Of a stretch of DNA of 64,000 bases, positions 48,049 to 51,800 are shown in pieces; within the stretch, counting starts at the first letter, position 1, and each line of letters starts with the position of its first letter. Under the pieces are notes generated by a model that saw only the letters and a list, made by a program, of their open reading frames with translations, made no database searches and was not told the origin of the DNA. The position numbers were made by a program, and so were the translations under genes. Where the stretch lies: contig JBCCEW010000012.1 in NCBI GenBank assembly GCA_039030075.1, positions 62,001 to 126,000 of the forward strand. Reading direction: 5' to 3'. The DNA is from Myxococcota bacterium (GTDB lineage Bacteria > Myxococcota_A > UBA9160 > SMWR01).

Positions 48049-49407
48049 TCAGGTCTCGAAGCCGTTCTCCGCAGCGACCGTCCCGTACCAGCGCCCGGAC
48101 TCCTTCTGCGTGCGGTCGCCGGTTTCGTAGTCGACCCAGCAGAGCCCGAAGCGCTGGTGGTATCCCTCGGCCCACTCGAAGTTGTCGAGCAGACTCCAGG
48201 CGTGATACCCGCGCAGGTCGACACCCGCATCGATCGCGCGCGCGGCGGCCTCAAGATAGCCGCGGTAGAAGTCGATGCGCGCCGAATCGCGCGCCACGCC
48301 GTCGGGGTCGGGGGGCGTGGCGTAGGAGCAACCGTTCTCGGTCACCTCGAGGGTGGGCCGGTCGTAGTCGCGGTCGATGCGCAGGAGGGCGTCTTCGAGG
48401 GCACGGGGCCAGACCTCCCAGCCGAAATCGGTCCGCGGTCCGTCCTCGCCGCCGAACGCGCCGACCGGGTTCGCGCCGGTGCCGAGCCGACCCCCGTCCG
48501 CGGCCGCCTCGACCAGGGTGCGCGTGTAGAGATTCACTCCGAGAAAGTCGTAGGGAGCGCGGATGCGTTCCAGGTCGCCGTCCCGGAACCCCATGGCTTC
48601 CCAGGGGTTCCCCGCCAGGAAGGGCTCCGGGTAGCGCCCGTGCAGGGCCGGTTCGAGGAACCAGGTGTTCGCCCACGCGTGCCAGCGTTCGCTCGCCGAG
48701 ACGTCTTCGTCGTGATCGCCGCGGGGTTCACAGGGCGACCAGTGGAACGCGCTGCCGATGCGGGCGTCGCTGCGATTCGCGCGGAGTGCGCGCAAGCCCT
48801 CGCCCTGGGCGAGGTTCACCGTGTGCGTCGCCGCGAAGAACGCGTCGCGATCGCGGCGGCCGGGCGCGTGAATGCCGATCAGGTAGCCCAGGGTGGTGAA
48901 GATGCCGGGCTCGTTCAGCAGCACCCAGTCCGAGACGCGATCCCCGAGTCGCCGCGCCACCAGGTCGACGTAGTCGGCGAAGCGCCCCGCCGTGTCCCGG
49001 TTCGGCCACCCGCCCAGGTTCTCCAACGTCTGGGGCAGATCCCAGTGGTAGAGGGTCACCAGCGGACGAATGCCCGCATCGAGCAGGGTGTCGACCAGGC
49101 GGCCGTAGTAGTCGAGGCCGGCCGCGTTCGCCTCACCCTTGCCCTTCGGCTGTACCCGGGGCCACGAGATCGAGAAGCGATAGCTCGAACAGTGCATCGC
49201 GCGAAGCAGGGCGATGTCTTCTTCGAAGCGGTGGTACGAGTCGCAGGCGACATCGCCGCGGTGGTCGCTCTTCACGCGACCGGGCTGGCGGACGAAGCGA
49301 TCCCAGATCGATTCGCCTTTGCCGTCGGCTCGCCAGGCGCCCTCGATCTGGTACGCGGCGGTGGCGGCTCCCCAGTGGAAGCCGTCGGGGAAGCGGAGAC
49401 GCGTCAT
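48049..49407 (-). CDS. beta-glucosidase, GH1 family
   Basis: 452 aa (beta/alpha)8-barrel glycosidase. FPDGFHWGAATAAYQIEGAWRADGKGESIWD is the GH1 N-terminal signature, the acid/base is Glu in LLNEPGIF, the nucleophile Glu in VTENGCSYA. RYAGLDYYGRLVDTLLDAGI-type helices and WSLLDNFEWAEGYHQRFG at the C-terminus complete the family pattern. Retaining hydrolysis of beta-linked glucosides in the cytoplasm. It begins the codon after the redoxin stop (TGAATG), so is translationally coupled to the selenoprotein gene; this is an unusual partner. Confidence 0.9.
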   Translation of the reverse strand: MTRLRFPDGFHWGAATAAYQIEGAWRADGKGESIWDRFVRQPGRVKSDHRGDVACDSYHRFEEDIALLRAMHCSSYRFSISWPRVQPKGKGEANAAGLDYYGRLVDTLLDAGIRPLVTLYHWDLPQTLENLGGWPNRDTAGRFADYVDLVARRLGDRVSDWVLLNEPGIFTTLGYLIGIHAPGRRDRDAFFAATHTVNLAQGEGLRALRANRSDARIGSAFHWSPCEPRGDHDEDVSASERWHAWANTWFLEPALHGRYPEPFLAGNPWEAMGFRDGDLERIRAPYDFLGVNLYTRTLVEAAADGGRLGTGANPVGAFGGEDGPRTDFGWEVWPRALEDALLRIDRDYDRPTLEVTENGCSYATPPDPDGVARDSARIDFYRGYLEAAARAIDAGVDLRGYHAWSLLDNFEWAEGYHQRFGLCWVDYETGDRTQKESGRWYGTVAAENGFET

Positions 49408-50631
49408 TCAGCCGTTGCGGCGACGCTGACTCGCCTGGCGCTCGAGCTGGAACGACTTCCAGAAGAAGCGGGGGAGCCCCGCCGGGTTCTCCTTGAACTT
49501 CCGCCAGATCAAGCGCAGCAGGTGCTTCTCCATCCGCGTCGCGCTCTCGCGCTGCCCGTGCCCGCGGTGCATGCCGAGCGACGGCACGTCGATCACGTCG
49601 AGGGGCACGGTCAACGCCATCTTCTCGCTCTTCGGCGGGAAGCACATCTGGTCGTCGCAGGCCTGGTAACGGATGCCCACCTCGATCGTGACGTCGTCTT
49701 GATCGAGCGGGCGCGTCTCGCTGGCGAGCTCACCGACTGCGTAGAAGGGCACGACGAAGTCGACCTGCCCGCTCCAGACCGGGAGCTCGACGTCGATGCT
49801 CTCCATCCGCAGCGTCTCGGTCGGCGGCGCTTGCAGTTCTTCGAACACCAGGCCGGGCGGGCCCGAAACCTCGAGTGCGGTCGCCACCATGCCCTCGGGC
49901 ACCCCGTCCCCATAGATGTGGAGCCCCTCGCCGAGGTCGCAGCGCACCACCAGTTCGCGTCGGATGCCCTGGCGGATCGTGCCGCCGCCGCCGTGCACCT
50001 GCGCCGTGAAGCGGACATCGGCGTCGCCGCCGCTCGCGGCCGGTGCTTCGTCGGACAGGACGCGGCGGCCCAGCGCGGCGTCGAGGTAGAGCTCGGGGCT
50101 GTCGCGCTTCTTGTAGGTGTCGTGGAAGAACTTTGCGACGACGACGCCGTCCTCGTCGGTGACGTACACGCCGGGGTAGGGGATCCCGTGGAGGAAGGCG
50201 TCCTCGACTCCGATCTGGTCGTTCAAGATGCCGTAGCGACGGATGACGGCAGAGTCGACGTCGGAGAGCAGCCGAAAGGGAATCCGCTGCTTCTCCTGGA
50301 AATCGGAGAGGACCCCGGTGTCGTCGTAGGAGATCGCGTAGACCTCGATCCCTTCCGCTTCGAACTTCCCGAAGGCGTCTCGCAGCTCACCGAGCTGCGT
50401 CCAGCACGGAGGTCACCAGACGGCGGAGCGATAGAAGACGACGATCGACTTCTTGTTGCCGCGGCTCGCGTGGTAGTCGACGGACGTTCCGCTCGCATCG
50501 GGCAGCGTGAAGTCGGGAAGACGCTCCCCCACTTCGGGGCCCGTCGGGTGCCCGTCGGGCAAGCCCAGGCGCCCCGGGTGGCCCAAGGGTGCCGGAGCGT
50601 CGAAGCCGTGGTGATCGCGTTCGATCGTCAT
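49408..50631 (-). CDS. probable selenoprotein: UxxC peroxiredoxin-like domain fused to DsbD-alpha-like domain
   Basis: Read through an in-frame TGA (50415-50413) as selenocysteine, the protein is 407 aa. N-terminal residues 35-72 match AhpC/TSA-type redoxins (GERLPDFTLPDASGTSVDYHASRGNKKSIVVFYRSAVW), and the TGA is residue 73 in W-U-P-P-C-W, exactly where CxxC/WCPxC occurs in relatives. The frame is open on both sides, and the later residues fit (LRDAFGKFEAEGIEVYAISYDD...IPFRLLSDVDSAVIRRYG). From about 190 the protein resembles the DsbD N-terminal alpha domain (IRYQACDDQMCFPPKS). An 8-bp stem with GGU loop starts 14 nt after TGA (SECIS-like). ATG 50631 has GGAGGAG upstream. TGA also serves as final stop. 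Confidence 0.75.
50381..50399 (-). ncRNA. SECIS-like hairpin downstream of the in-frame TGA
   Basis: On the minus strand, CGCAGCTC-GGT-GAGCTGCG forms a perfect 8-bp stem with a three-base GGU loop. The loop starts 22 nt after the TGA, within the spacing expected for bacterial SECIS elements, which need a short upper stem and a loop G/U near the apex for SelB. It lies inside the coding sequence, as bacterial SECIS elements do. Confidence 0.65.
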
Positions 50632-51800
50632 CGAGAGTCTCCTCCGGGCGCGACCCGGGTCGCGAGCTTCGCAAAACGAGCGAACGGATGCCGGGGTTGG
50701 GATTCGGGCGACGTAATCACTTCGAGGCCCCCACCAAAGGGAGCGCGACGCTCCGTGTCGACCTCGGAGGGCCGCGGCGGCGGCGCGAACACGAGCTCCG
50801 AGAGCTCGTGCTTCGGGAGATGTTCGCGGACCCGCTCGCGCTCGTCGGGAGTCAGCGCGGCGGCGTGCCGGTGGAGCTCCTCCCAGCACCAGACCCGGTA
50901 GCGCGAGGTCGGCAGGTCGCGGTAGCGAACGCCCTGGACGAGCACGTCGTGTCGCCAGGCGTCCCGGGCGAACGCGGCCGCGTTCTCTCGCAACGTCGCG
51001 AAGTGGGTTTCCACGATCTCTTGCAGCAGGGGTTGCATCGCGCTGGGAATTTCGGCGTCGAGCGGCGCTTCGCCCAGTTCGCTGCCGCGCGCGTTCCAGA
51101 GGCGCGCGAGCCATTCCCAGACGGCCGGTGCGCGATTCTGCATGATCACGGCGGGCGTCGGGTCGTGGGAGAAGTGGCGCAGCATCGGACCGACCAATCC
51201 GATGTCGGCGAGGGTGGGGCGGGATCCGAAACAGTAGGGCCGGTCGGCGAAGAGGGCCGACAGGAGGTCGAGGCTGCGCAGGTAGCTGCCCTCGACGTGG
51301 GCACGGTTCTCGTCCGACACGCCGTCTCCGGTCACGAAGATGGACTTCTGACGGCTCCGTACCATGAAGCGTTTGAGTGCACCGGGGAGCGGGAAGCCGG
51401 GCATCAGTTCGTGCGCGAGCTTTCGCGACAAGAGCTCGCGGTCCGGGTCGTAGCTCCAGCGGTAGTGCATCGCGGGGCGCCACAGCCACTCGTCGGCCCA
51501 GTCCTCGATGAGTCGGGCCAGGAAGGCGTGGGCCGGGTCCTCGGGCAGGATCGGGGGCGCCGGCTGTTGGGTCTCGTACCAATCGATGATCGGCGTCGAG
51601 TCGGTCATCCACCGCCCATCGGGCAGGTGCACTGCCGGCACCTGCGACGCGCCGGCGAGCGCGCCGAGCTGGTCCGGTGCGATGGCTACGAACTCGTAGG
51701 GAATCTCCTTGTAGCGAAGATACGCCTCGAGCTTTCCCGTGTAGTACGAGACCGATGCGCCGTAGACCCGGGGCGCTTCGCCGGTGGTCGTGTCTGTCAC
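50628..51800 (-). CDS. long GST-like (metaxin/GST N- and C-domain) protein
   Basis: 390 aa from GTG 51800. N-terminal thioredoxin-like region YGASVSYYTGKLEAYLRYKEIPYEFVAI...QVPAVHLPDGRWMTDSTPIIDWYE (with the VPAV cis-Pro and DSTPI loop) and a GST C-terminal helical part (YCFGSRPTLADIGLVGPMLRHF). It is about 140 residues longer than ordinary GSTs, with a helical tail (DLPTSRYRVWCWEELHRHAAALTPDERERV). Its stop overlaps the selenoprotein ATG (ATGA), so it is translationally coupled upstream of it. Likely glutathione-dependent; exact reaction unknown. Confidence 0.8.
   Translation of the reverse strand: MTDTTTGEAPRVYGASVSYYTGKLEAYLRYKEIPYEFVAIAPDQLGALAGASQVPAVHLPDGRWMTDSTPIIDWYETQQPAPPILPEDPAHAFLARLIEDWADEWLWRPAMHYRWSYDPDRELLSRKLAHELMPGFPLPGALKRFMVRSRQKSIFVTGDGVSDENRAHVEGSYLRSLDLLSALFADRPYCFGSRPTLADIGLVGPMLRHFSHDPTPAVIMQNRAPAVWEWLARLWNARGSELGEAPLDAEIPSAMQPLLQEIVETHFATLRENAAAFARDAWRHDVLVQGVRYRDLPTSRYRVWCWEELHRHAAALTPDERERVREHLPKHELSELVFAPPPRPSEVDTERRAPFGGGLEVITSPESQPRHPFARFAKLATRVAPGGDSR

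Follow-up and report, generated by a model that had tools for sequence, protein, structure and literature searches.

A gene interrupted by an in-frame TGA

The window, the whole 64,000-nucleotide stretch of Myxococcota DNA that we analyzed, contains on its minus strand a gene that runs from an ATG at 50631-50629 to a TGA stop at 49410-49408, and that carries a further in-frame TGA at codon 73 (Table 1). A preliminary description had pointed to this internal TGA and to the frame open on both sides of it, and we found the same: when TGA is translated as U, the frame yields 407 residues and reads FYRSAVW-U-PPCWTQL around codon 73 (VVFYRSAVW-U-PPCWTQLGELRDAF in a longer reading). Ordinary ORF calling splits the gene, the largest in-frame piece being 272 amino acids from a TTG at 50226; standard calls thus leave a short peptide and a fragment, and the conserved redox enzyme stays hidden. 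An open frame by itself says little here, because the DNA is GC-rich: the window has 330 TGAs that close an open frame of 72 codons or more, and after 26 of these the frame stays open for another 334 codons or more. The significance of the TGA frame therefore comes from homology and conservation.

The stop codon of the glutathione S-transferase-like gene upstream overlaps the ATG (ATGA), suggesting that the two genes are probably on the same transcript. On the other side, a beta-glucosidase-like gene (48049-49407, minus strand) begins directly at the stop codon (TGAATG), and the interrupted gene is thereby packed tightly between two genes of the same strand. Comparison of gene neighborhoods among the homologous loci revealed no universally conserved neighbor; a glutathione S-transferase-like homologue lies nearby in 11 of 101 loci, representing about six distinct genomes.

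Table 1. Features of the predicted selenoprotein gene and its surroundings (window positions), and TGA-containing paralogues elsewhere in the genome (positions preceded by a locus label).
Feature	Position	Strand	Description
Predicted selenoprotein gene	49408..50631	-	407 aa; N-terminal AhpC/TSA (Prx-like UxxC) and C-terminal nDsbD-like domain; from translation with TGA as U, and Pfam
AhpC/TSA (redoxin) domain	50134..50532	-	Residues 34-166; PF00578, 2.8e-30, 105 bits against a cut-off of 26; spans the TGA
Predicted Sec73 codon	50413..50415	-	TGA in W-U-P-P-C; TGA in every covering homologous locus
Cys76 codon	50404..50406	-	Partner of Sec73 in UxxC; invariant in homologue alignments A1 and A3
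SECIS-like hairpin	50381..50399	-	8-bp stem CGCAGCTC/GAGCTGCG, loop GGT at 50391-50389, 21 nt after the TGA
DsbD_N-like immunoglobulin-fold domain	49615..49962	-	Residues 224-339; PF11412, 9.4e-8, above the Pfam cut-off
Cys325 and Cys330 codons	49642..49659	-	C-x4-C (YQACDDQMC); place of the nDsbD active-site cysteines
Glutathione S-transferase-like gene	50628..51800	-	Upstream of the predicted selenoprotein gene; sequence and neighbor comparison
WUPYC paralogue	L002:1848	-	In-frame TGA at redox site
WUPYC paralogue	L004:1887	-	In-frame TGA at redox site
WUPFC paralogue	L003:1836	-	In-frame TGA at redox site
TPGU paralogue	L006:1686	-	In-frame TGA at redox site
WUPFT paralogue	L007:1624	+	In-frame TGA at redox site

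TGA is kept in every homologous locus found that covers the codon

We searched public genomes with two patterns, one of which lay away from the site, making that part of the scan unbiased toward either codon. The scan yielded 53 loci, and all 51 that cover codon 73 have TGA there. The gene is present in 23 of 61 related genomes, where each covering locus is interrupted by a single TGA, always at this codon. In a scan of the phylum, 37 of 379 genomes gave a match at 1e-25, and all matches covering the codon show TGA, the sole stop-free match being a C-terminal fragment. The full length from the same ATG is conserved in relatives, the full-length product is kept in other genomes at about 48-76% identity, and the WUPPC motif is invariant in the homologues. 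By their labels, the host records belong to Myxococcota/Deltaproteobacteria and to marine gammaproteobacteria (Halieaceae, Pseudomonadales); Spirochaeta and Alphaproteobacteria are represented by one record each. The majority of the records are MAGs; the record of marine gammaproteobacterium HTCC2143 (L082), which is not marked as a MAG, has the TGA as well.

The window comes from a draft genome in 55 contigs, and a TGA in such an assembly could be a TGC altered by a mistake in sequencing or assembly, or mark a nonsense mutation in a gene undergoing decay. The same-codon TGA in all covering loci from many independent assemblies refutes this explanation and excludes the TGC error, and coding conservation extends over the full length on either side of the TGA; we give error or decay practically no credence.

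The pairing of Cys and Sec at one position serves to recognize selenoproteins. In distant homologues with a single domain, the residue aligned with the TGA is Cys (FYRGAWCPYC and FYRGGWCPFC in Rhizobium/Sinorhizobium), and the same holds for two homologues in the same genome (WATWCKPC and WASWCGPC, L005 and L008). The in-frame UGA therefore stands where close homologues have UGA and distant ones Cys, which is the outcome that the preliminary description had looked for in an alignment. The homologous loci of the public, phylum and relatives scans included no Cys form of the two-domain fusion. One candidate for such a form, a Flavobacteriales protein (L106; VWCPPCWT, Cys = TGT), was rejected: it aligns over 53 residues only and, judging from this alignment, is probably unrelated to the fusion. 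A 225-residue single-domain version, without DsbD_N, occurs at two loci (L052 and L101); it is 67% identical over residues 1-218 and keeps the TGA. The genome of L052 (G055) also carries a full-length copy (L049).

The host genome encodes the selenocysteine machinery

In the host genome (5.76 Mb, 95% complete) we found selA (517 bits), selB (322.6 bits) and selD (271 bits), each above its curated cut-off, together with a tRNA-Sec (69.7 bits) with the anticodon UCA; the second match of the tRNA-Sec search was a tRNA-Ser. All of the genes named in the preliminary description as a check on selenocysteine use are thus present. Among ten host genomes labelled mostly as gammaproteobacteria, selA was found in all, in nine above the cut-off and in one split in two. 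Counted by hand, selB exceeded the cut-off in 20 of 23 related genomes with the gene versus 26 of 38 without it, and its presence did not clearly separate the two groups. In the three draft genomes that carry the gene and gave no selB above the cut-off, incompleteness of the assembly may be the cause.

The same genome contains five other redoxin genes with an active-site TGA (Table 1), so that it holds at least six Sec-type redoxin genes and can be called selenoprotein-rich. Four of the five paralogues have an 8-bp SECIS-like hairpin, three of them at the same 21-nt spacing (G-U pairs allowed), and this pattern lends independent support to active use of Sec in the genome.

If the TGA were an ordinary stop, a 72-amino-acid peptide would be followed by a separate protein restarting downstream, for instance at TTG 50226, from which a conventional ORF of 272 amino acids does run, as automatic annotation might call it. 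However, the AhpC/TSA domain spans the TGA, the invariant WUPPC motif and the helix that follows it lie upstream of the 50226 start, and the genome has a complete sel system. Termination at codon 73 is accordingly very improbable.

Decoding of TGA as Trp or Cys, through an altered genetic code or a suppressor tRNA, fares no better in our estimate, and there is little chance that it is correct. The Cys that distant homologues have here is compatible with it in principle; against it, TGA also terminates this gene and several of its homologues, the adjacent Trp is always encoded by TGG (57/57), a tRNA-Sec with a UCA anticodon is present, and the hairpin would be left unexplained. The comparisons above indicate that the TGA is very probably read as selenocysteine, as had been proposed initially. 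The three findings named at the outset as arguments against that proposal did not materialize: homologues with Cys at the position exist, the genome has the sel genes, and an error for TGC is excluded.

A SECIS-like hairpin follows the TGA

The preliminary description had expected a SECIS just downstream of the TGA, and a candidate is indeed found there. The hairpin, which as RNA is CGCAGCUC-GGU-GAGCUGCG, fits the published bacterial SECIS model (PMC13188914) in loop, stem, G position and spacing; applied to the 981 TGAs of the window, the same model gives stems of at least 8 bp for 9 of them. Synonymous variation falls by half over the hairpin. In 57 distinct sequences, synonymous codon diversity was 0.26 in codons +5 to +12, compared with 0.586 upstream, 0.538 in codons +1 to +4 and 0.48-0.55 further downstream; Glu82 is GAG in 57/57 and Thr78 is ACG in 56/57. 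The stem was paired in 96% of cells, versus 18-47% when it was slid along. Only one stem pair shows a compensatory change (G-C to A-U), and the covariation shuffle control was partly uninformative because most stem pairs are invariant.

The hairpin was not more stable than shuffles of its own sequence (z -0.93), and the argument at the RNA level therefore rests on synonymous conservation and the fit to the model. For some of the gammaproteobacterial members, the fold of lowest energy is not this hairpin. Scanning the window against Rfam at gathering thresholds gave no match, and hence no curated SECIS family.

Taken together, we consider it likely, with good though not complete confidence, that the gene encodes a genuine selenoprotein, a two-domain redox protein. 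The SelA, SelB, SelD and tRNA-Sec of the host would decode UGA73 as Sec, directed by the downstream hairpin.

The active site resembles UxxC oxidoreductases

A Pfam scan of the product found AhpC/TSA, Redoxin and DsbD_N only, and the redoxin matches in NCBIfam were all below threshold, including those to SelL-related redox proteins (NF040769; 37 versus a cut-off of 120 bits) and ResA (NF002854; 41 versus 170 bits), to which the redoxin domain is weakly similar. An AlphaFold2 model built with 45 sequences had a mean pLDDT of 93.9 and a pTM of 0.91, and its Foldseek matches were peroxiredoxins (AhpE, Bcp) and ResA.

In the alignment with peroxiredoxins, Cys76 falls on the peroxidatic Cys and residue 73 on the Thr/Ser of TxxC. 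The classical Pxxx(T/S)xxC active site is therefore lacking, its Thr/Ser position being taken by the predicted Sec. From this alignment, Sec73 corresponds to the first, attacking Cys of the WCxxC motif of TlpA/ResA/thioredoxin-like proteins. The earlier placement of Sec at the redox Cys of a peroxiredoxin-like protein thus holds for the first Cys of WCxxC; it does not hold for the peroxidatic Cys. With an AhpC/TSA domain and Sec in UxxC, the protein has the features of Prx-like thiol:disulfide oxidoreductases.

The main functional rival to a thiol-disulfide oxidoreductase is a peroxidase. The selenoprotein would then act chiefly as a peroxiredoxin, Sec73 or Cys76 attacking peroxides and the nDsbD-like domain serving as a built-in reductant. 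The AhpC/TSA domain, the alignment of Cys76 with the peroxidatic Cys, and the nearest solved structures, which are peroxiredoxins (AhpE, Bcp) both by sequence and by fold, all speak for this role. The loss of TxxC to a site that reads as thioredoxin-like UxxC speaks against it, and so does the literature, where such proteins are classed as thiol:disulfide oxidoreductases (PMC9312934). We regard the peroxidase role as rather unlikely, yet as deserving far more weight than any of the non-Sec readings of the TGA.

An nDsbD-like domain with an invariant cysteine pair

The C-terminal domain had been missed in the preliminary description. Its DsbD_N match recurs in all 45 relatives scanned, and Cys325 and Cys330 are both invariant in homologue alignments A1, A3 and A4; the protein thus has an N-terminal DsbD domain with its Cys pair. 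A search of the domain sequence against solved structures gave no match. Modelled alone, the C-terminal part reached a pLDDT of 85, and its first ten Foldseek matches were nDsbD of E. coli and Neisseria (best 3pfu, 1l6p, 1jzd and 1vrs), with moderate TM-scores of 0.55-0.60 by target length.

The domain shares with nDsbD (PF11412) the immunoglobulin fold and an active-site Cys pair. In E. coli nDsbD the pair, C103/C109, lies on opposite strands of a hairpin with five residues between the cysteines (PMC7347389), in contrast to the C-x4-C of the window protein. Unlike DsbD, the window protein has neither the transmembrane nor the C-terminal thioredoxin domain in the Pfam scan. Inspection of the sequence by eye revealed no evident signal peptide, hydrophobic N-terminus or membrane segment, and a cytoplasmic location is therefore likely.

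These features suggest how the protein might work. The product would consist of a Prx-like/TlpA-like thioredoxin-fold domain with W-Sec-P-P-Cys, followed by the nDsbD-like immunoglobulin-fold domain with its Cys pair, placing both redox partners in one polypeptide. The protein would be a thiol-disulfide oxidoreductase in which Sec73 attacks as a selenolate, and a Sec73-Cys76 selenenylsulfide would form and then be reduced by, or passed to, Cys325/Cys330. The last exchange is proposed by analogy with nDsbD, which in the periplasm exchanges electrons with thioredoxin-fold partners; partners of nDsbD include DsbC and CcmG (PMC7347389). We give this scheme of selenolate, selenenylsulfide and exchange with the Cys pair about an even chance.

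A wider reading, which we put forward tentatively and think somewhat less probable than its converse, is that Sec is obligatory, as it appears to be, and that Myxococcota and marine gammaproteobacteria share a soluble, probably cytoplasmic polypeptide that joins a Sec-containing thioredoxin-fold catalyst to its own nDsbD-type electron partner. If true, a relay known elsewhere from the periplasm, where separate proteins share it, would here be contained in a single molecule. Sec is retained in every homologue found, and why no exchange of Sec for Cys took place here is a directly testable question.

Relation to known selenoproteins

By domain and motif, the window protein is a member of the Prx-like UxxC selenoproteins (PF00578; Prx-like 1 of the GOS survey), with which it shares AhpC/TSA with Sec in a thioredoxin-like UxxC, occurrence in marine bacteria and a predicted thiol-disulfide redox role (PMC1088965, PMC2398784, PMC13188914). 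This selenoprotein family has been known since 2005, and selenium in the Prx-like fold is therefore not new. The suggestion of a new selenoenzyme combination must be restricted accordingly: selenium in a UxxC redoxin is already known, and the fused nDsbD-like domain is the unusual part. The window protein differs from the family in this C-terminal domain with an invariant C-x4-C, and also in that the family has many Cys homologues whereas our scans gave no Cys member of the fusion. The joining of a Prx-like UxxC domain to an nDsbD-like one is a selenoprotein architecture of which we found no mention in the open-access papers searched, whose silence does not prove novelty. Among the entries of Table 1 of PMC13188914 considered here the fusion does not occur, and the only DsbD entry is the rhodanese/DsbD protein TsoB.

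TsoB (rhodanese/DsbD fusion-like, NF045694) resembles the window protein in being a selenoprotein with a DsbD-like part, and differs in its rhodanese partner domain and UxxxxU motif (PMC13188914). Another Prx-like selenoprotein, joined to a domain that contains Cys, has also been described (PMC2398784) and has the same general layout; compared by description only, that fusion has three conserved Cys including a CxxC, and the window protein has two in C-x4-C.
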